Shown: positions 5,683 through 32,509 of the stretch, one piece after another
Layout of the letters: every line of letters begins with the position of its first letter
Position numbering within the stretch: position 1 is the stretch's first letter
Origin: Planctomycetaceae bacterium
Lineage (GTDB): Bacteria > Planctomycetota > Planctomycetia > Pirellulales > Thermoguttaceae
Direction: 5' to 3'
DNA length: 37,067 nucleotides
Assembly: GCA_031279215.1 (NCBI GenBank)
Contig: JAITIZ010000325.1
Location: 1 to 37,067 of the forward strand
The notes under the pieces: model-generated
What the model saw: the letters and a program-made list of their open reading frames with translations, nothing else
What the model was told of the DNA's origin: nothing
Databases searched by the model: none
Translations under genes and position numbers: made by a program

Positions 5683-5952
5683 TTATTGAAAATCCCGCAA
5701 CAACCGTAACTGTTGCAAAATTTCATTTAACAAAACCGGATCTATTTGTTTAAGTTTTTGAGCATATCGTACCGCCTGACGATAATTGCCAACATCCAGC
5801 GCATCTGTCAATTTCCGCTCCAACAATTGAATATTTTCATTCAACTGCCGAAGTTCACTGAGATCTGTTCGGCAACGACGGCATACATCCTGCCATGTCT
5901 GTTCTACACCACAGGATGGACACCGACATTGTGTACGATTAGTTAGTATCAT
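5683..5952 (-). CDS. Small zinc-ribbon protein coupled to the Hsp70 gene
   Basis: An 89-residue protein with a CPSC pair at residues 11-14 and a CRRC pair at about 24-27 (a four-cysteine zinc ribbon), followed by a helical region of about 60 residues (NIQLLERKLTDAL, then NYRQAVRYAQKLKQIDP) that resembles one TPR-like helix pair. Its ATG overlaps the TGA of the Hsp70 gene (ATGA), which points to translational coupling. I do not recognise the family. The context suggests an accessory factor of the Hsp70 system; DnaJ also carries a zinc ribbon, so this could be a detached substrate-binding or regulatory piece, which is inference only. Confidence 0.85.
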   Translation of the reverse strand: MILTNRTQCRCPSCGVEQTWQDVCRRCRTDLSELRQLNENIQLLERKLTDALDVGNYRQAVRYAQKLKQIDPVLLNEILQQLRLLRDFQ

Positions 5953-7748
5953 ACCGAATCCTCTAAATAATACAAGAGATCATCCAATTGCGAAACAAGC
6001 GAAGTTATCTGATTCGAATCGTTACGCTTGATCGCATCAACAAGTTCTTTGATTCGCGTTTCGATATCTTTCTTGTCATCATCGGCTACTTTTGAAAGAT
6101 AAGCCGCTGCCCGTTGAATCAATGCAGCTTCTTTCGCATAATGTTGTTCCCAACCATCAGCAAGACCCAACCGGTTTATAAAGTTTTTATCGTCTATTGT
6201 TGATTCGGAACCGACTTGCTCCGGTTCAACCGAAACCGCTTCCTCATCCGCAAAAAAGCCGTTCAGATGTTCCCGGAATGACTGGTTGACTTCAGGTTTA
6301 TACTCAGTTAAAACGTTTTCGACAGTAATGTCCCCGGCAAGTCCGGTATCTTTTTCAGTTGCTGTTACATGCAAAATTCCATTGATGTCCAAATCAAATC
6401 GGCAAACAATCTGATTACCATGAGGAACTTTCGCAAGACCGGCTAAATGAAAACTGCCAATCTGCGCATTTTGACGAACATCATCAGCCTCACCTTGATA
6501 AACATTAATCTCTACCGTTTCCTGATTATCAACTACAGTTCCATAAACCTTGGAACGGGAACAAGGAATAGGAGTGTTACGTTTAATAATGGGTGAAAAA
6601 ATAAACGGCGAATATATTCTTGGATCAAAAACACTGGTTCCAAGAGTGTGAGGCGTAATATCAATCAAAACACGCCCCACCTTCGTACCGGAAATAAGAC
6701 CGCCCTGAATCGCCGCACCCATCGTAACACAAAGATCAGGATCAATTTCACCATGTAATTTATTACCCAACCGGCTTTCAAGTAACTCATGAACACGCGG
6801 TGTTCGCGATGCTCCGCCAACCATGATAACCTTGTCAATATCGTCAGGATGCAACTGAGCATCATTCAACGCATCATTGAGACAAGTCAGCGTCTTCTCA
6901 AGAAGCGGCATTATCTGTTCTTCATATTGATGACGACTCAACTCCATATCAAGATGTAATGATATTCCATTTTTTTCCGTAATAAATTCTTCTTTAATTT
7001 GAGTAAACGGTTCCGTCGAAAGACGTTTTTTGGCTTCTTCAACCGCTTGTAACACACGGGAAACAGCAACCGGAGTTTCACGAAGATCAATTTTATGCTG
7101 CTTTTTGAACTCATCACAAACATAATCGAAAAGCAATTGATCAAAATCATCACCGCCAAGATGAGTATCTCCGTGACTAGCCAAAACTTCCAGAACACCT
7201 TCTTCAACACGAACAATTGATACGTCAAATGTTCCGCCGCCAAGATCATAAACAAGCAATGTTTCCCGTTGGGTCGAATCGGAATTATAAACAAGCGATG
7301 CGGCTGTTGGTTCGTTGATGATTCGTACCACATCAAGACCGGCTAATTCCCCAGCAAGACGAGTCGCTTCGCGTTGCGTATCATTAAAGAACGCCGGAAC
7401 CGTAATAACCGCTTTGGATACTTTTTGACCAAGCGATTCTTCGGCATAAGACCTGAGCGTCCTAAGAATCATCGCAGAAATTTCAGGCGGCGTATATTCC
7501 CGTTCACCAAGTTGGACATGAACATCTTCGCCCATCTTACGCTTAATTGACTTAATTGTTCGCTCCGGGTAGAGAATCGCCTGATTTTTCGCCGGATGAC
7601 CAACCAAAAGATTGCCGGCTAAATCAATGCCAACTACTGATGGAAGAAGCCGATTACCGTCTTTTTCAATAACAACAACATCGTCACCGTGAATAACGGA
7701 TACCTCACTGTTGGTTGTACCAAGATCAATTCCAAGAATTGTTTCCAT
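5949..7748 (-). CDS. Hsp70-family chaperone (DnaK-like)
   Basis: ATP-driven protein-folding chaperone acting in the cytoplasm. The 599 residues contain the actin-like ATPase domain with phosphate-1 motif GIDLGTTNS (6-14), VPAFFNDTQREAT (118-130), phosphate-2 motif VYDLGGGTFDVSIV (166-179) and the adenosine motif VGGASRTPRV, then a beta-sandwich substrate domain and a shortened helical lid. It is shorter than E. coli DnaK (638) and ends in LEDSV without the acidic tail of housekeeping DnaK. It follows the repeat-tailed GrpE gene by 56 nt and overlaps the zinc-ribbon gene by 4 nt. Given the unusual partners I read it as a second, specialised Hsp70 and not the main heat-shock copy; a genome-wide count of dnaK genes would settle that. 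Confidence 0.93.
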   Translation of the reverse strand: METILGIDLGTTNSEVSVIHGDDVVVIEKDGNRLLPSVVGIDLAGNLLVGHPAKNQAILYPERTIKSIKRKMGEDVHVQLGEREYTPPEISAMILRTLRSYAEESLGQKVSKAVITVPAFFNDTQREATRLAGELAGLDVVRIINEPTAASLVYNSDSTQRETLLVYDLGGGTFDVSIVRVEEGVLEVLASHGDTHLGGDDFDQLLFDYVCDEFKKQHKIDLRETPVAVSRVLQAVEEAKKRLSTEPFTQIKEEFITEKNGISLHLDMELSRHQYEEQIMPLLEKTLTCLNDALNDAQLHPDDIDKVIMVGGASRTPRVHELLESRLGNKLHGEIDPDLCVTMGAAIQGGLISGTKVGRVLIDITPHTLGTSVFDPRIYSPFIFSPIIKRNTPIPCSRSKVYGTVVDNQETVEINVYQGEADDVRQNAQIGSFHLAGLAKVPHGNQIVCRFDLDINGILHVTATEKDTGLAGDITVENVLTEYKPEVNQSFREHLNGFFADEEAVSVEPEQVGSESTIDDKNFINRLGLADGWEQHYAKEAALIQRAAAYLSKVADDDKKDIETRIKELVDAIKRNDSNQITSLVSQLDDLLYYLEDSV

Positions 7749-7804: not shown

Positions 7805-9871
7805 TTAATGTTTCGTTTGAGATCGAACTGCAACACGAACATCTGCAAAACGAACCGGTTTGTTGCGCCAAAGATATCCTGCCCGAACCACCTCAACCAC
7901 ACTGCCCGGCTCTGTTGTATTCGTCTCAACTGTAGCAAGAACCCGCATCGTCTCTGGATTAACCGGTTCACCCGTCGGGTTAAGCCGGCAAATCGCGTGC
8001 CTTTTCAACACATCATCCATACGACTCTGCATCATCTCATAACCAAGCCGAAACGGTTCAAGTATTCGTTCAATTTCCAAAATATGTTGATGAGCAAGAT
8101 GTTCGGCAAAATGCCGGACTGCTCTTCGCTGCCAAAAACGCTGCCACGATGTTAATTCATCACAATAGGATTTAGCCAACGTCGAAATCCGCTCAAAAAC
8201 AAGACCCGTCAAACGTTCTTGCAAAACTTTCAGTGCCACACCCGCTCGCTGGAGTGCCTCGTCAATCTCAATCAAACTCATCAAATACGGTTGAATCGCT
8301 TTACGCTCAATCTCCGGACGCTCTTTACGCAAACGACGAAGTTGATCAAGCGTTTGCGAAGTTTCTTCTATATTCTTTTCAAGAAGTTCCTGGGTTTGCC
8401 GATTGGATTTGGTAAACAGCTTAAACTCATGACGCTGAGCCGTAAGCGTTTCAAAAACCTGATAAAACCCAATCTTCGGTAACTCCTCCTCCTCGCCGTC
8501 TGGCTCGTCTTTCGCAGCAAACCAGTCAATAAAATGTTTCAAAGTTTCTTCACGATATTTGAAAAGTATCTGTTCAAATGCCTTGAATTCTTCCGCTTCC
8601 GTCTGATTCAATAAATAATTTTCTTCGGTAACAATATTTTCTGTTTCATCTTCTTCCGTTTCCGTCTGATTCAATGAATAATTTTCTTCCGCAACAATAG
8701 TTTCAGTTTCATCTTCTTCCGCTTCCGTCTGATTCAATGAATAATTTTCTTCTGCAACAATAGTTTCTGTTTCATCTTCTTCCGTTTCCGTCTGATTCAA
8801 TGAATAGTTTTCTTCCGCAACAATATTTTCTGTTTCATCTTCTTCCGTTTCCGTCTGGTTCAATAAATAATTTTCTTCCGCAACAATAGTTTCTGTTTCA
8901 TCTTCTTCCGTTTCCGTCTGATTTAATGAATAATTTTCTTCCGCAACAATATTTTCTGTTTCATCTTTTTCCGTTTCCGTCTGATTTAATGAATAATTTT
9001 CTTCCGCAACAATAGTTTCTGTTTCATCTTTTTCCGTTTCCGTCTGGTTCAATGAATAATTTTCTTCCGCAACAATAGTTTCTGTTTCATCTTTTTCCGT
9101 TTCCGTCTGATTCAATAAATAATTTTCTTCCGCAACAATAGTTTCTGTTTCATCTTTTTCCGTTTCCGTCCGGTTCAATGAATAATTTTCTTCTGCAACA
9201 ATATTTTCTGTTTCATCTTTTTCCGTTTCCGTCTGATTCAATGAATAGTTTTCTTCCGCAACAATAGTTTCTGTTTCATCTTCTTTCGTTTCCGTCTGAT
9301 TCAATGAATAATTTTCTTCCGCAACAATAGTTTCTGATTTATTTTCCGTCGACTCTGTTGGAACTAAAATGAAATTTTGCTCCGCTGTAACCTGTTGCTC
9401 TGATTTACTTTCCTCCGGCTCGGTCGGAACTAAAATGAAATTTTGTTCTGCTGTAACTTGCTCTGATTTATTTTCTGCCGGTTCAGTCGGAACTAAAATG
9501 AAATTTTGCTCCGTTGTAACTTGCTCTGTTTTATCTTCTGCCGGCTCTGCTGAAACTAAAATGAAATTTTGTTCCGCCGTAACCTGTTGCTCTGTTTTAT
9601 TTTCTGCCGGCTCTGCTGAAACTAAAATGAAATTTTGTTCTGCTGTAACTTGCTCTGTTTTATTTTCTGCCGGCTCTGCCGGAACTAAAATGAAATTTTG
9701 TTCCGCTACAACATTTTCCAATCTATCTAATTCTGATTTTGCCGGAATTAAAACAAAATTCTGTTTTGCGGAAATATTTTGTTTTACAACAATATTTTCC
9801 GATATCGTTTCCGAAGAGAATTGGAATGATTCATTCGGTTGCTGTACTGCCGCTAATTCGTTCTCTATCAT
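7805..9871 (-). CDS. GrpE nucleotide-exchange factor with long repeat tail
   Basis: GrpE releases ADP from Hsp70. Here 688 residues replace the usual 200 or so. Residues 54-428 are 18 tandem units of 21-22 residues (19 with a degenerate one before them): first six of the type TAEQNFILVPAEPAENKTEQ, then twelve of the type IVAEENYSLNQTETEEDETE, strongly acidic and Gln/Asn/Thr-rich. Residues 429-688 hold the GrpE-like part: a long helical region (FETLTAQRHEFKLF, TSQTLDQLRRLRKERPEI) and a C-terminal beta domain with GEPVNPETMRVLATVET, EPGSVVEVVRAGYLWRN and PVRFADVRVAV, matching the GrpE pattern. The next gene downstream is Hsp70. The tail is probably extended and surface-exposed; its role is unknown. 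No Shine-Dalgarno before the ATG. Confidence 0.92.
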   Translation of the reverse strand: MIENELAAVQQPNESFQFSSETISENIVVKQNISAKQNFVLIPAKSELDRLENVVAEQNFILVPAEPAENKTEQVTAEQNFILVSAEPAENKTEQQVTAEQNFILVSAEPAEDKTEQVTTEQNFILVPTEPAENKSEQVTAEQNFILVPTEPEESKSEQQVTAEQNFILVPTESTENKSETIVAEENYSLNQTETKEDETETIVAEENYSLNQTETEKDETENIVAEENYSLNRTETEKDETETIVAEENYLLNQTETEKDETETIVAEENYSLNQTETEKDETETIVAEENYSLNQTETEKDETENIVAEENYSLNQTETEEDETETIVAEENYLLNQTETEEDETENIVAEENYSLNQTETEEDETETIVAEENYSLNQTEAEEDETETIVAEENYSLNQTETEEDETENIVTEENYLLNQTEAEEFKAFEQILFKYREETLKHFIDWFAAKDEPDGEEEELPKIGFYQVFETLTAQRHEFKLFTKSNRQTQELLEKNIEETSQTLDQLRRLRKERPEIERKAIQPYLMSLIEIDEALQRAGVALKVLQERLTGLVFERISTLAKSYCDELTSWQRFWQRRAVRHFAEHLAHQHILEIERILEPFRLGYEMMQSRMDDVLKRHAICRLNPTGEPVNPETMRVLATVETNTTEPGSVVEVVRAGYLWRNKPVRFADVRVAVRSQTKH
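8588..9712 (-). repeat. 63-bp coding minisatellite in the GrpE gene
   Basis: Eighteen tandem copies of a 63-bp unit (two units are 66 bp) encode the GrpE tail. Copies at 9329-9712 belong to type A (EQNF-containing) and 8588-9328 to type B (EENY-containing). Within type B the unit ends alternate DETET and DETEN and the variants EKD and EED cluster, which points to growth by block duplication. Since 63 is a multiple of three, gain or loss of units leaves the frame intact. Confidence 0.95.
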
Positions 9872-10020: not shown

Positions 10021-10311
10021 TTATTCTCCCATTTTAAGGAGTGCTGAGGTTGGCAATCGTTCATTTCGAATGGCTGTGAGGAATACTTCGATAATTTGTT
10101 CCATAGAATCATTATGATGTAACGATATAAGTAATTCGGAAATTGTTCCGAGCGGATCACGAAGTTTTTCGTATGCCTCATGAATTTTCGAAAACTTATC
10201 AGGATGCGATTCCGGCGGAAACTGTTGAACTAATTCAAGATACCGCTTTCGCAATACTTCTTCAGAACAACCCGGTAATAACTCCAATGTGTGATAATAA
10301 ATATCGTACAT
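10021..10311 (-). CDS. J-domain-like mini-protein with displaced HPD
   Basis: A 96-residue protein whose first 53 residues follow the J-domain pattern: YDIYYHTLELLPGCSEEVLRKRYLEL (helices I-II) and KIHEAYEKLRDP (helix III). J proteins stimulate Hsp70 ATPase through an HPD at the end of helix II. Here that position reads FPPE (31-34), and an HPD appears at 36-38, only one residue before the helix III phenylalanine F40; the loop is shorter than usual. The C-terminal 40 residues are helical and unassigned. It lies between the TPR-like gene and grpE, so a role as co-chaperone of this Hsp70 is likely. Whether the displaced HPD works is unknown. 149 nt separate it from grpE. Confidence 0.82.
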   Translation of the reverse strand: MYDIYYHTLELLPGCSEEVLRKRYLELVQQFPPESHPDKFSKIHEAYEKLRDPLGTISELLISLHHNDSMEQIIEVFLTAIRNERLPTSALLKMGE

Positions 10312-10383: not shown

Positions 10384-13224
10384 TTATCTTTTATTTTTTT
10401 TCTTCTTTTTGAAGTGTTTAGGAGTAGGGAACAGATAGTTATCGTCATCGTCGTCGTCATCATTATTGTTCTTTTCGTTTTGTTGTAAACTACTAATTTG
10501 TACTATAGCGGAGATAAATCGCATTCTTTCTAATGGGGGCAACGAGTCCGCTTTCTTCATCAAATATTTATCCACTTGATCCATTGGAATTCCTTGTGCC
10601 AAACACTCCAGAAAAGTATCAAACATCAGTACACGCAATTCCCCCAATTCCTCCGGCAAAGAATTTATCAAATCTTGTTTTAACTCCGGCGGCAAAACGC
10701 CTTTCGCAATGGATTCTTTGAGATCAGGCGGAATATCAATAATATTACGTGAAGAATTAAACCTAGAAGAAAAGAGTTTTTCCTCCTCGTTATCAAATTT
10801 GTAATAGTCATCGCCGTCATCATCGTCATCATCATCTTCGTCATCAAAAAATTCATAATTTTTATTATCAAATCTATCATAACCATACGACAACAAATAA
10901 TCAATATCGTCAAACCGTAATTTTGCTTCATTAAGATAAAATTCCAACACCGGATCATTTCGAAAATGACCGCACTGTTCAATAAATGATTGATATTTTT
11001 TAATTGTTGAATCTCGGCATGACATTTGATAATATCTTGATTCCAGAAAAAATATTTCTGCATCGAAAAAAAGGAAATACGGAGAAAGCGGAAATTGCGA
11101 AAGTCCTTTTTGGACTAATTTTTTGTACATTGCATCGTAATCATGTTTTCTAAGTTTGACCGCAAGATACCAGAGAACTTTACACGCTCCGTATATATCT
11201 TTTTCCGTTTTCCATTTAACCTGTGCCGACCGATTGATAAAATCAAATATTTGTAAGAGAATTTGTTTGGAATTGGTAAATGTTTTTTTTTCAACCATGA
11301 TCGTGTAAGCAATATTGCCCAACGCGCCGGCAAGATTACCGTTACAACGTCCGGTAATAGCCGAATTCCATTCGTCCTGAAACGATTGGAGAACTTGTAC
11401 AGGAAATTTGGGAAAATTCTCAACTTCCAAAAAAATTGTCAGTATCAATGGAAGACGTTTTTCCAAACCTACTTTTTCAGCCAATGTAAACACATTTTCC
11501 GCCTCAGACGGATGATTTGAGATTGTTTCATAAATATATCTCAATGCTAACGGTACTAAATCATAATTGTATTCAATTGTATTAAGATTTGTCTCTTCAA
11601 TTTCTTTGAACAGTTGTTCTATTTCGGAGTGTTCCTGATTCAATTGCAACAGTTCTTTTAAACGGACATATTGGAGTTTCCGTTTCAAAAATATTGGTTC
11701 ACGGGAAAGGGGTTCCAGAGTTTGGATTCGCTCAAGATAATGAAGAGCATCCGCATAATTCTCTTCAGCAATATAATATTGGAACAAATATTTTAATGCT
11801 TCTATATTGTTCGGAACATGTTCAATAAGTTTGCGGTAAACTTCAGCAATTTTCGGATGATGCTGATTATTTTCGTGTTCGGGAATAGTGATGCAATAAA
11901 ATTCCTGAAGACGAGAATATGTAATGAGATAAGTTGGATCGTATGCAATGGCTTTATCAAAATATTTAGAGATTTTCTCTTGTCCCTGAATTTCATCTTC
12001 ATTATGATACGAATCAAAATCATTATTATATAACGACTGCATGATGAGATTGCCGAGAAAACTGTAAATAACAGCCTTCGCACGGGCTTTCATATTCGGA
12101 GTAAACGATTTGATTTGGTCAATATCATGTTCGGCAAAGAGTTCAAAATAATAAAGCGGATCCCGAAGCCATCGAGGGATATGGCCTCCTTTTTCCCTCA
12201 TGCTTGTACTTGATCCAAAATTGAGTGAAAGTAACCCTAATGTTCGATTACCTCGCGGGTCAAACGGAAGCGGAAGATTACGTTCAGCAAATTGCCTAAC
12301 GATTTCCGGTTTTGCTTCGTCAACAAGAGTAAAATGTACTGTACGAAAAACACGATCAAACAAAAGCGGGTCTGTTTTTTGAAGAAAAGAACGGGACACT
12401 TGAAAATGCCCAATTAGTTCCTTATATTTTTTTTGCCGGATATAATTATCCAGTTGACGAAGATGATTAAAAAATTCAATTTTTTCCGTCTGAACCGAAT
12501 CGGTTTTGGCACGGAATAGATCAAAGAACCGTGAAACAAAATTAGATGAAGAAGCGTTGGGATCATCGGTGAAGAATTTCCGCAAACGGCTGACAATTTG
12601 ATATGGCGGACGCGAATCTGATAGCCGTTTCCAACTTTCATTAGCTTTTTCATCATTCTTATTGTAATAAGAAATCAACCCTCGAATAAAAAGCCGCCAT
12701 TCGGACAAAGGAGAATGAAATGAAATGGGATGAAGCAATTCCAAAGCCTCATTATCAAGTTTTGCCTCAACTTTTTCGAAAGCTTTTTTAATTAGAATTG
12801 CTTGATCGCGAAGGTCAGGTAATAAATCGTCGGAGTTTTCGCCATAGACAAGAAAACGATCTACCAATTCAATTTGAATTTCGGGAGAATTCATATCCTG
12901 ACGCAGATGTTCCGGTAACAATGCGTTCAAGCCAAGAACCCGAAAGATTGCAGGAAATTCTTTTTGTATTTCTGAGTTTTTGATATTTGGATTTTTGATT
13001 AGCCGAAGCAATTCCTTAATATTCGTTTTAGCTTCTTCTCGTTGGTTACGGTTGAACTGTTCTTTGATCCATTCCCACAGCGAAGAGGCGAGTAATTCCT
13101 GCAATTCCGGTTCATTATGGAGTCGGCTTAAAAACAAAGCTTCTTTATAAGCCTTCTTCCAATAACCTCGACGCCGTAAATCTTGTATTTTGTTAATTTT
13201 AGGTTGTAATTTGGCAGAAATCAT
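10384..13224 (-). CDS. Large TPR-like helical repeat protein with acidic tracts
   Basis: A 946-residue, apparently soluble protein without signal peptide. Helical repeat pairs of TPR type are clearest around residues 425-530 (AYDPTYLITYSRLQEFY; PNNIEALKYLFQYYIAEENY; ADALHYLERIQTLEP). Two aspartate runs lie near 793-812 and 918-930, and the protein ends in a lysine-rich tail (HFKKKKKNKR). It is the first gene of the minus-strand run, 72 nt before the J-like gene. TPR proteins often bind Hsp70 or its clients, so a client adaptor or scaffold role is plausible but inferred. I do not recognise a named family. No promoter or CIRCE-type operator could be identified upstream. Confidence 0.85.
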   Translation of the reverse strand: MISAKLQPKINKIQDLRRRGYWKKAYKEALFLSRLHNEPELQELLASSLWEWIKEQFNRNQREEAKTNIKELLRLIKNPNIKNSEIQKEFPAIFRVLGLNALLPEHLRQDMNSPEIQIELVDRFLVYGENSDDLLPDLRDQAILIKKAFEKVEAKLDNEALELLHPISFHSPLSEWRLFIRGLISYYNKNDEKANESWKRLSDSRPPYQIVSRLRKFFTDDPNASSSNFVSRFFDLFRAKTDSVQTEKIEFFNHLRQLDNYIRQKKYKELIGHFQVSRSFLQKTDPLLFDRVFRTVHFTLVDEAKPEIVRQFAERNLPLPFDPRGNRTLGLLSLNFGSSTSMREKGGHIPRWLRDPLYYFELFAEHDIDQIKSFTPNMKARAKAVIYSFLGNLIMQSLYNNDFDSYHNEDEIQGQEKISKYFDKAIAYDPTYLITYSRLQEFYCITIPEHENNQHHPKIAEVYRKLIEHVPNNIEALKYLFQYYIAEENYADALHYLERIQTLEPLSREPIFLKRKLQYVRLKELLQLNQEHSEIEQLFKEIEETNLNTIEYNYDLVPLALRYIYETISNHPSEAENVFTLAEKVGLEKRLPLILTIFLEVENFPKFPVQVLQSFQDEWNSAITGRCNGNLAGALGNIAYTIMVEKKTFTNSKQILLQIFDFINRSAQVKWKTEKDIYGACKVLWYLAVKLRKHDYDAMYKKLVQKGLSQFPLSPYFLFFDAEIFFLESRYYQMSCRDSTIKKYQSFIEQCGHFRNDPVLEFYLNEAKLRFDDIDYLLSYGYDRFDNKNYEFFDDEDDDDDDDGDDYYKFDNEEEKLFSSRFNSSRNIIDIPPDLKESIAKGVLPPELKQDLINSLPEELGELRVLMFDTFLECLAQGIPMDQVDKYLMKKADSLPPLERMRFISAIVQISSLQQNEKNNNDDDDDDDNYLFPTPKHFKKKKKNKR

Positions 13225-26138: not shown

Positions 26139-26996
26139 ATGTCCAACCAGTCCATTTCCTCGATTTACGAATCGGTCATGCAATCCATCCGCGAAGCGCA
26201 ACAAGAAACCTATAAAGTGATCCAAGACTTCGTAAAAGATACAAACCAAGCGATACAGCGGGTTTCCGTCCAACACGAGGAAACCAAAAAATCTCTCCAA
26301 GAGCTTTCCGCCCAACATAAAGAAACCGAAAAAGCAATTGATAGAGTATCCGCCCAACATAAAGAAACCGAAAAAGCAATTGATAGAGTTTCCGTACAAC
26401 ATAAAGAAACCGAAAAAGCAATTGATAGAGTTTCCGCCCAACATGAGGAAACCAAAAAGTCTCTCCAAGAATATATTAATGAAGGTAGAAAAGAAAGAAA
26501 AAAACTCTCAAAACAAATAGGAATTTTAGGAAAACAAATGGGAATTTTAGGAAAACAAATGGGAACATTAGGAAATCGTTTTGGCGAAATTACGGAACAC
26601 ATGGTTTTTCCCGCCGTTGTTAAACGTTTCAACGAACTCGGTTATAATTTTAATTTTGAATTTGAAGGCAATTGTAAAGTACGAGACAAAAATAATCAAA
26701 TCATTGCTGAAATTGATATTTATCTTGAAAATGGTACAACAATTGCTGTTGTCGAAGTCAAAACGAAACCCGACTTAAACGATATTGGTAAACATATTCA
26801 ACGTATCGAAAAATTGAAACAAAACCGCAAAGAAAAAAATGAGCCGTCCAAAAAACTTATTGGCGCAATAGCTGGCGCAATTTTCCCCAAAGAAGTTAAA
26901 GAGGCCGCTCTGGAAGTTGGTCTCTACGTGCTTGTCCAATCCGGCGATACCATGAAATTAGAAATCCCGGAAGGGTTCAAACCAAAAGAATTTTAA
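26139..26996 (+). CDS. PD-(D/E)XK-like protein with coiled-coil repeats
   Basis: 285 residues in two parts. Residues 1-150 form a coiled coil with five 14-residue tandem units at 42-111 (VSAQHKETEKAIDR type) and a GILGKQM heptad repeat after them. Residues 150-285 look like a PD-(D/E)XK nuclease-like core: FGEITEHMVFPAVVKRF helix, E191-I-D193, and E206-V-K208 in AVVEVKTKP. This family of DUF3782-like proteins is common in bacteria with mobile or multi-copy content; no substrate is established that I can name. No Shine-Dalgarno seen. It stands alone, 140 nt before the helicase gene's ATG. A nuclease activity is inferred from motif order only. Confidence 0.8.
   Translation: MSNQSISSIYESVMQSIREAQQETYKVIQDFVKDTNQAIQRVSVQHEETKKSLQELSAQHKETEKAIDRVSAQHKETEKAIDRVSVQHKETEKAIDRVSAQHEETKKSLQEYINEGRKERKKLSKQIGILGKQMGILGKQMGTLGNRFGEITEHMVFPAVVKRFNELGYNFNFEFEGNCKVRDKNNQIIAEIDIYLENGTTIAVVEVKTKPDLNDIGKHIQRIEKLKQNRKEKNEPSKKLIGAIAGAIFPKEVKEAALEVGLYVLVQSGDTMKLEIPEGFKPKEF
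26262..26471 (+). repeat. 42-bp coding tandem repeat
   Basis: Five units of 42 bp encode 14-residue coiled-coil units. The outer two carry ETKKSLQE and the inner three ETEKAIDR, so the array is symmetric in its variants. Unit gain or loss keeps both frame and heptad phase. Confidence 0.9.
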
Positions 26997-32371: not shown

Positions 32372-32509
32372 GGGAACTTCTAAAAACTCATTTTTTTAGG
32401 AACGCAGGCGTCTCGCCTGCACTTTTAGGAACACAGGCGTCTCGCCTGCACTTTTTATAGGCAATGTGCAGTCGAGACGACTGCGTTCCTGATGTTTTTA
32501 GAAGTTCCC
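32372..32509. mobile_element. 138-bp MITE, family a, copy 3, duplication TTTT
   Basis: Perfect 16-bp inverted ends GGGAACTTCTAAAAAC / GTTTTTAGAAGTTCCC with TTTT on both sides (32368-32371, 32510-32513). Inside, the AGGCGTCTCGCCTGC hairpin occurs twice in tandem, unlike copies 1 and 2. No open frame. Confidence 0.9.

Follow-up and report, generated by a model that had tools for sequence, protein, structure and literature searches.

A divergent planctomycete GrpE with a repeatedly enlarged tandem-repeat tail as a candidate multivalent pseudosubstrate of Hsp70

Comparison with its relatives showed that the window, the 37,067-nucleotide stretch of planctomycete DNA analysed here, encodes a divergent GrpE, termed GrpE2, that belongs to a second, planctomycete Hsp70 operon, and that its amino-terminal tail has been enlarged repeatedly, separately in each lineage, via in-frame tandem duplication of short units. 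By analogy with the short tail of E. coli GrpE, we tentatively propose that the GrpE2 tail could work as a multivalent pseudosubstrate of the partner Hsp70.

The GrpE2 frame occupies positions 7805–9871 of the window on the minus strand, encodes 688 residues plus the stop codon from an ATG start, remains open through tail and core, and has orthologues in five near species. Two related arrays detected by TRF lie inside this single frame (9871–7805), one with a period of 63 bp at 8588–9336 (11.9 copies, 94% matches, 0% indels) and one of 63/64 bp at 9330–9707 (5.9 copies). When the protein was divided at each E[EQ]N[YF], 18 unit starts of 21–22 codons emerged ahead of the GrpE core. The first block (residues 57–184; 9320–9703, minus strand) comprises six EQNF units of the EQNFILVPAEPAENKTEQVTA type, two of them 22 residues long, with the core motif NFILV[PS], whose NFILV is invariant in five species. 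It is followed by 12 EENY units of the EENYSLNQTETEEDETETIVA type (residues 185–428; 8588–9319, minus strand) with the core NY[SL]LNQ, 11 of which are full 21-residue units, the last being truncated to 13 residues at the start of the GrpE core (residues 429–688; 7808–8587, minus strand). Full units measure 66 bp in two cases and 63 bp in all others. Ahead of the array, the head of the tail (residues 1–56; 9704–9871, minus strand; MIE.E...QQPNE.F.FSSE) is kept in L017–L019 and contains a degenerate KQNF unit (KQNFVLIP) from residue 36. The preliminary description had reported an in-frame array of 18 units over 375 codons (8588–9712) with unit variants grouped in blocks, and TRF, the open frame and unit splitting all bear this out. 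A higher-order repeat of four units, hinted at by YLLNQ in every fourth unit, was dismissed, as a lag of 4 gave no peak in unit identity.

An assembly artefact is unlikely, as exact repeats do not exceed 59 bp and similar arrays occur in relatives. With the longest exact repeat of the array region at 59 bp and no 61-mer present twice, standard short reads, or k-mers longer than 59, suffice to resolve the order of the units; the assembly of the source genome is fragmented into 716 contigs. No further occurrence of the 63-bp unit was found anywhere in the source genome, and a family-wide search recovered it only in the GrpE2 gene of four g1 genomes, besides a weak, stop-containing match in G016 that we judged unrelated. 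Its absence elsewhere in the genome and the outcome of the family search led us to reject a mobile or multi-copy repeat.

In 285 kb sampled from the source genome, window included, small in-frame coding tandem arrays with periods divisible by three were common. These many smaller arrays make a mutational cause plausible, in which a slippage-prone array within a permissive disordered tail changes size with little functional effect; we treat this as a serious rival, albeit an unlikely one. The GrpE2 array exceeds every other coding tandem array of the sample several times over in length, the next reaching at most 160 bp, which speaks against the mutational account. A 285-residue coiled-coil protein of the window (26139–26996, plus strand) contains a further in-frame array in its coding sequence (42 bp, 3.8 copies, RVSAQHKETEKAID) together with one of 21 bp. 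Separately, a repeat with GGAAC(A/G)CAGGCGTCTCGCCTGCAC is present at window positions 32394–32455, at L060:2972–3185 and at L093:1–224, on several contigs and mostly outside long open frames, and is perhaps a small dispersed palindromic element.

The Pfam GrpE model (PF01025) matched residues 603–681 (7829–8065, minus strand) and scored 59.9 bits, the cut-off being 25.8, but covered model positions 86–164 only, and the best score of the NCBIfam GrpE equivalog models was 45.8 bits against a cut-off of 231. A canonical GrpE of 202 residues is encoded elsewhere in the source genome (G000:C404), beside groEL, groES and dnaJ. Since the equivalog scores fall far under their cut-offs and this canonical gene exists, we assign GrpE2 as a diverged GrpE paralogue, the housekeeping grpE being another gene, which corrects the earlier label "GrpE". 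The AlphaFold (AF2) model of GrpE2 exhibited helices at residues 414–624 and strands at 627–682 with good confidence (pLDDT 70–94 for most of the core), reproducing the long amino-terminal helix, helical bundle and carboxy-terminal β-domain of the GrpE fold, and the PDB fold matches ranked 1–12 were all GrpE structures. For residues 1–411, pLDDT was below 50, mostly 26–36, and the tail is accordingly predicted to be disordered. Within the core, G610 is invariant in 20 orthologues and aligns with a glycine of the human mitochondrial GrpE homologue; judged by eye, it appears equivalent to E. coli G122, which is needed for DnaK binding (PMC12915176). Of 398 genomes searched class-wide with a GrpE2-core profile, 96 gave a match, with probable canonical GrpEs at the weak end, and the longest open frame among these matches has 689 codons.

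The next in-frame ATG after codon 1 is codon 531, inside the core. Comparison with L017 yielded a dN/dS of 0.13 for the head (codons 1–66) and 0.10 for the core. Against more distant relatives the head gave 0.29–0.45, and between other pairs of relatives up to 0.86 and 1.24 on 33–35 codons; only the closest pair, the window and L017, thus shows clear purifying selection on the head. Between units, pN/pS was 0.29 for EENY and 0.33 for EQNF, values that are indicative only, as the units share history. As the head is under purifying selection and no further in-frame ATG follows the start before codon 531, we conclude from these sequence comparisons that the tail is translated. The preliminary description had allowed that related genes might all lack the array and that translation might start independently near residue 430; instead, relatives possess the array, the head is under purifying selection and no in-frame ATG lies between codons 1 and 531.

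Outside a few genera, tailless GrpE2 orthologues are widespread, with MGNWPDHEAIL or a similar sequence directly preceding the core, and the acidic tail is, from this distribution, a derived trait of few genera. L017, the sister of the window species (92/84 support), carries 14 unit starts, mostly EENLVLNQTETEESEAENIVA; L018 carries five, mostly EENQFLNQTETEEDDEEENIVA; and L019 has about four degenerate units. In L020 the repeat unit is a different one of about 50 residues, L022 has a non-repeat acidic tail with poly-Glu, and in another genus (L029:4505–6025, L030:473–1834) GrpE2 exhibits a tail with an unrelated QIIDIFQ repeat of ~14 residues (NIGQIIDIFQKE) and, after it, an acidic stretch. 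The arrangement with NF-type units first and EEN-type units second is common to the window, L017, L018 and L019, and both unit types are therefore probably older than the amplification. Unit DNA identity amounts to 0.94 within the EENY block of the window and 0.92 within the block of L017, but only 0.73 between the two, indicating that amplification or homogenisation acted on a separate version of the unit in each lineage.

Copy number thus differs between related genomes (18, 14, 5 and about 4), a between-species comparison with one genome per species. The earlier proposal that the array grows and shrinks in frame holds at this level, with 14, 5, about 4 or zero units of this kind in relatives. 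A swing from 18 to 4 or none among close species and the absence of the tail from many orthologues are in line with slippage of little functional effect. The same account is at odds with purifying selection on head and units, with the conservation of hydrophobic motifs and with the independent origin of repeats in a second genus.

The net charge of the long-tailed orthologues is negative throughout, from −23 to −104; in GrpE2 itself, the EQNF block carries −20 over 128 residues and the EENY block −80 over 244, with a neutral core (0). A second serious rival builds on this property, treating the tail as a flexible acidic spacer or bristle whose role is to maintain the solubility of GrpE2 or of its complexes, or to fix how far the GrpE body reaches towards a partner, with length and charge mattering and the exact sequence hardly at all. 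We regard it as somewhat unlikely. Strong negative charge extends to non-repeat tails such as the poly-Glu tail of L022, tail length varies freely and disorder is predicted, all in line with such a bristle, which has, however, no need to keep NFILV, SFDRLMxFSV or [VI]DIFQ while the acidic parts drift and does not require the pN/pS of about 0.3 between units.

These motifs are the best-conserved part of the tail in each of three lineages, in every case a short hydrophobic motif amid acidic residues. While most tail positions drift, none of the five species of the repeat clade has lost NFILV; TSFDRLMxF[ST]V, a motif of the SFDRLMxFSV type, opens the tail in L022–L026 and is present in each of the five non-repeat species; and the GrpE2 tail of the other genus (L029, L030) contains several copies of [VI]DIFQ. 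Conserved hydrophobic residues with acidic flanks are thus evident for NFILV and weaker in the EENY units. Hydrophobic clusters exceeded those of shuffled tails in L017, L020 and L030; the window tail contained 12 versus 9.8 in shuffles, which was not significant (p 0.21). The preliminary description had offered spacing, binding or solubility as functions without choosing among them, and the conserved motifs would favour binding.

A precedent for such binding is the E. coli GrpE tail, whose IIM in PEEIIMDQH weakly enters the client groove of DnaK as a pseudosubstrate, helped by local concentration (PMC12915176). IIM binds despite unfavourable acidic flanks and aids peptide release, and its mutation nearly abolished the effect of the tail (PMC12915176). 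In M. tuberculosis, GrpE without its 42-residue tail was blocked in client release (PMC10803776).

Following this precedent, the GrpE2 core would dock on the ATPase domain of its partner Hsp70, and the hydrophobic patch of each unit (NFILVP; weaker, NYSLNQ, NLVLNQ and NQFLNQ) would then transiently occupy the client groove and so help to expel the client. With 18 units per chain, and 36 per expected dimer, the local concentration of weak sites would be raised, while the acidic linkers would keep every site weak and the tail soluble, and the strength of the competition between exchange factor and clients would depend on copy number. The pseudosubstrate reading is favoured by a hydrophobic patch within an acidic disordered tail, the same anatomy as in E. 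coli GrpE, multiplied, and by the retention of hydrophobic motifs in the otherwise drifting tails of three lineages. It is weakened by the poor hydrophobic patches of the 12 EENY units, which form the majority, by the hydrophobic clusters of the window tail not rising above shuffles, by the disfavour of Hsp70s for acidic flanks and by the tailless orthologues that function elsewhere. A further-reaching version, which we consider rather unlikely, would make unit copy number an evolvable dial on the Hsp70 cycle, with tens of tandem pseudosubstrate sites turning GrpE2 into an avid client-ejection factor and with such multiplication having arisen more than once in planctomycetes from unrelated motifs.

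The presumed partner is an Hsp70 paralogue of 599 residues (5949–7748, minus strand; Pfam HSP70, 520 bits), a neighbour of GrpE2 that is kept in relatives. The gene order comprises a TPR-like protein of 946 residues (10384–13224, minus strand) heading the conserved cluster, a J-like protein of 96 residues (10021–10311, minus strand; Pfam DnaJ, 30.2 bits), GrpE2, the Hsp70, a zinc-ribbon-like protein of 89 residues with CPxC...CxxC (5683–5952, minus strand; a conserved member by gene-order comparison that had no Pfam match), and RluA-like and UbiA-like genes. The operon core, from the TPR-like to the zinc-ribbon gene, recurs family-wide in conserved order, which supports a dedicated Hsp70 partner for GrpE2. 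The source genome contains four Hsp70 loci, one being a strong DnaK at C312. In L022–L026, which form one branch within the genus of the window, we detected no Hsp70 next to GrpE2; the gene that follows GrpE2 in L023, L025 and L026 is release-factor-1-like, a name given by eye from a start resembling RF1. The J-like protein carries [PS]P[ED] at the position expected for HPD, with FPPE, YSPE or NPPE replacing it in every orthologue read over that stretch; the usual stimulation of Hsp70 may be absent. The end of the TPR-like protein, with poly-Asp runs and a KHFKKKKKNKR tail, forms another low-complexity region of the operon. A role in defence was set aside, padloc giving no match for the operon besides a weak, generic one to the Hsp70, and so was a GAP1-N2 conflict system (PMC7159879), no GTPase or FNIII partner having been seen in the cluster.

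Helical repeat proteins are frequent binders of short linear motifs in disordered tails, and the hydrophobic tail motif could have another partner, for example the TPR protein. Since a large TPR-like protein is encoded in the operon alongside small conserved partners, the repeats might serve as multivalent docking sites for the TPR or zinc-ribbon protein and build a chaperone assembly, instead of acting on the Hsp70 groove. This scaffold is less likely than the rivals above, and in our view highly improbable, as the same operon is kept by tailless orthologues and a fixed docking site would be expected to vary less between lineages than the motif does.

Under the pseudosubstrate reading, GrpE2 is of wider interest, since a direct view of GrpE tails ejecting Hsp70 clients is recent and comes from tails with only one weak motif in each chain. 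The GrpE2 orthologues have similar cores and differ in their number of motif-like units (0, about 4, 5, 14 and 18), a natural dose series in which tail valence could be set against charge and length in client release. GrpE2 would likewise clearly exemplify how a chaperone co-factor evolves through turnover of in-frame tandem repeats. Attention is due also to its conserved Hsp70 operon in planctomycetes, which includes a J-like protein devoid of HPD and of which our literature search found no account.

The preliminary description knew of no GrpE with such a tail, and literature searches, which covered papers outside subscription, likewise found none with a tandem-repeat tail. The statement needs qualifying: GrpE2 orthologues of another genus have an unrelated repeat tail, and E. 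coli and M. tuberculosis GrpE have short disordered tails that are important in client release (PMC12915176, PMC10803776). In-frame repeats in a low-complexity disordered region are shared with prokaryotic low-complexity regions generally, as far as the available part of that survey describes them (PMC6821194), whereas the GrpE2 repeats lie in an exchange factor for a chaperone and show hydrophobic motifs that are conserved, and relatives have independent arrays of their own. Hsp70–GrpE pairs beside GAP1-N2 GTPase systems resemble the GrpE2 operon in placing an extra GrpE and Hsp70 next to a DnaJ- or TPR-bearing protein; in the accessible sections of that study, these systems comprise GTPase and FNIII-repeat proteins, mainly in actinobacteria and firmicutes, with no repeat tail described (PMC7159879), whereas neither GTPase nor FNIII-repeat proteins were seen in the GrpE2 cluster. 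M. tuberculosis GrpE likewise has a disordered tail before the long GrpE helix, needed there for client release, but this tail spans about 42 residues and no tandem array is mentioned in the available part of the report (PMC10803776). Closest in anatomy is E. coli GrpE, which, like GrpE2, has a GrpE fold behind a disordered acidic amino-terminal tail with an acid-flanked hydrophobic motif (PMC12915176). The E. coli tail, however, is 33 residues long with one 17-IIM-19 motif in a housekeeping protein, whereas the GrpE2 tail presents 18 units over about 428 residues of a paralogue, with putative binding to the client groove.
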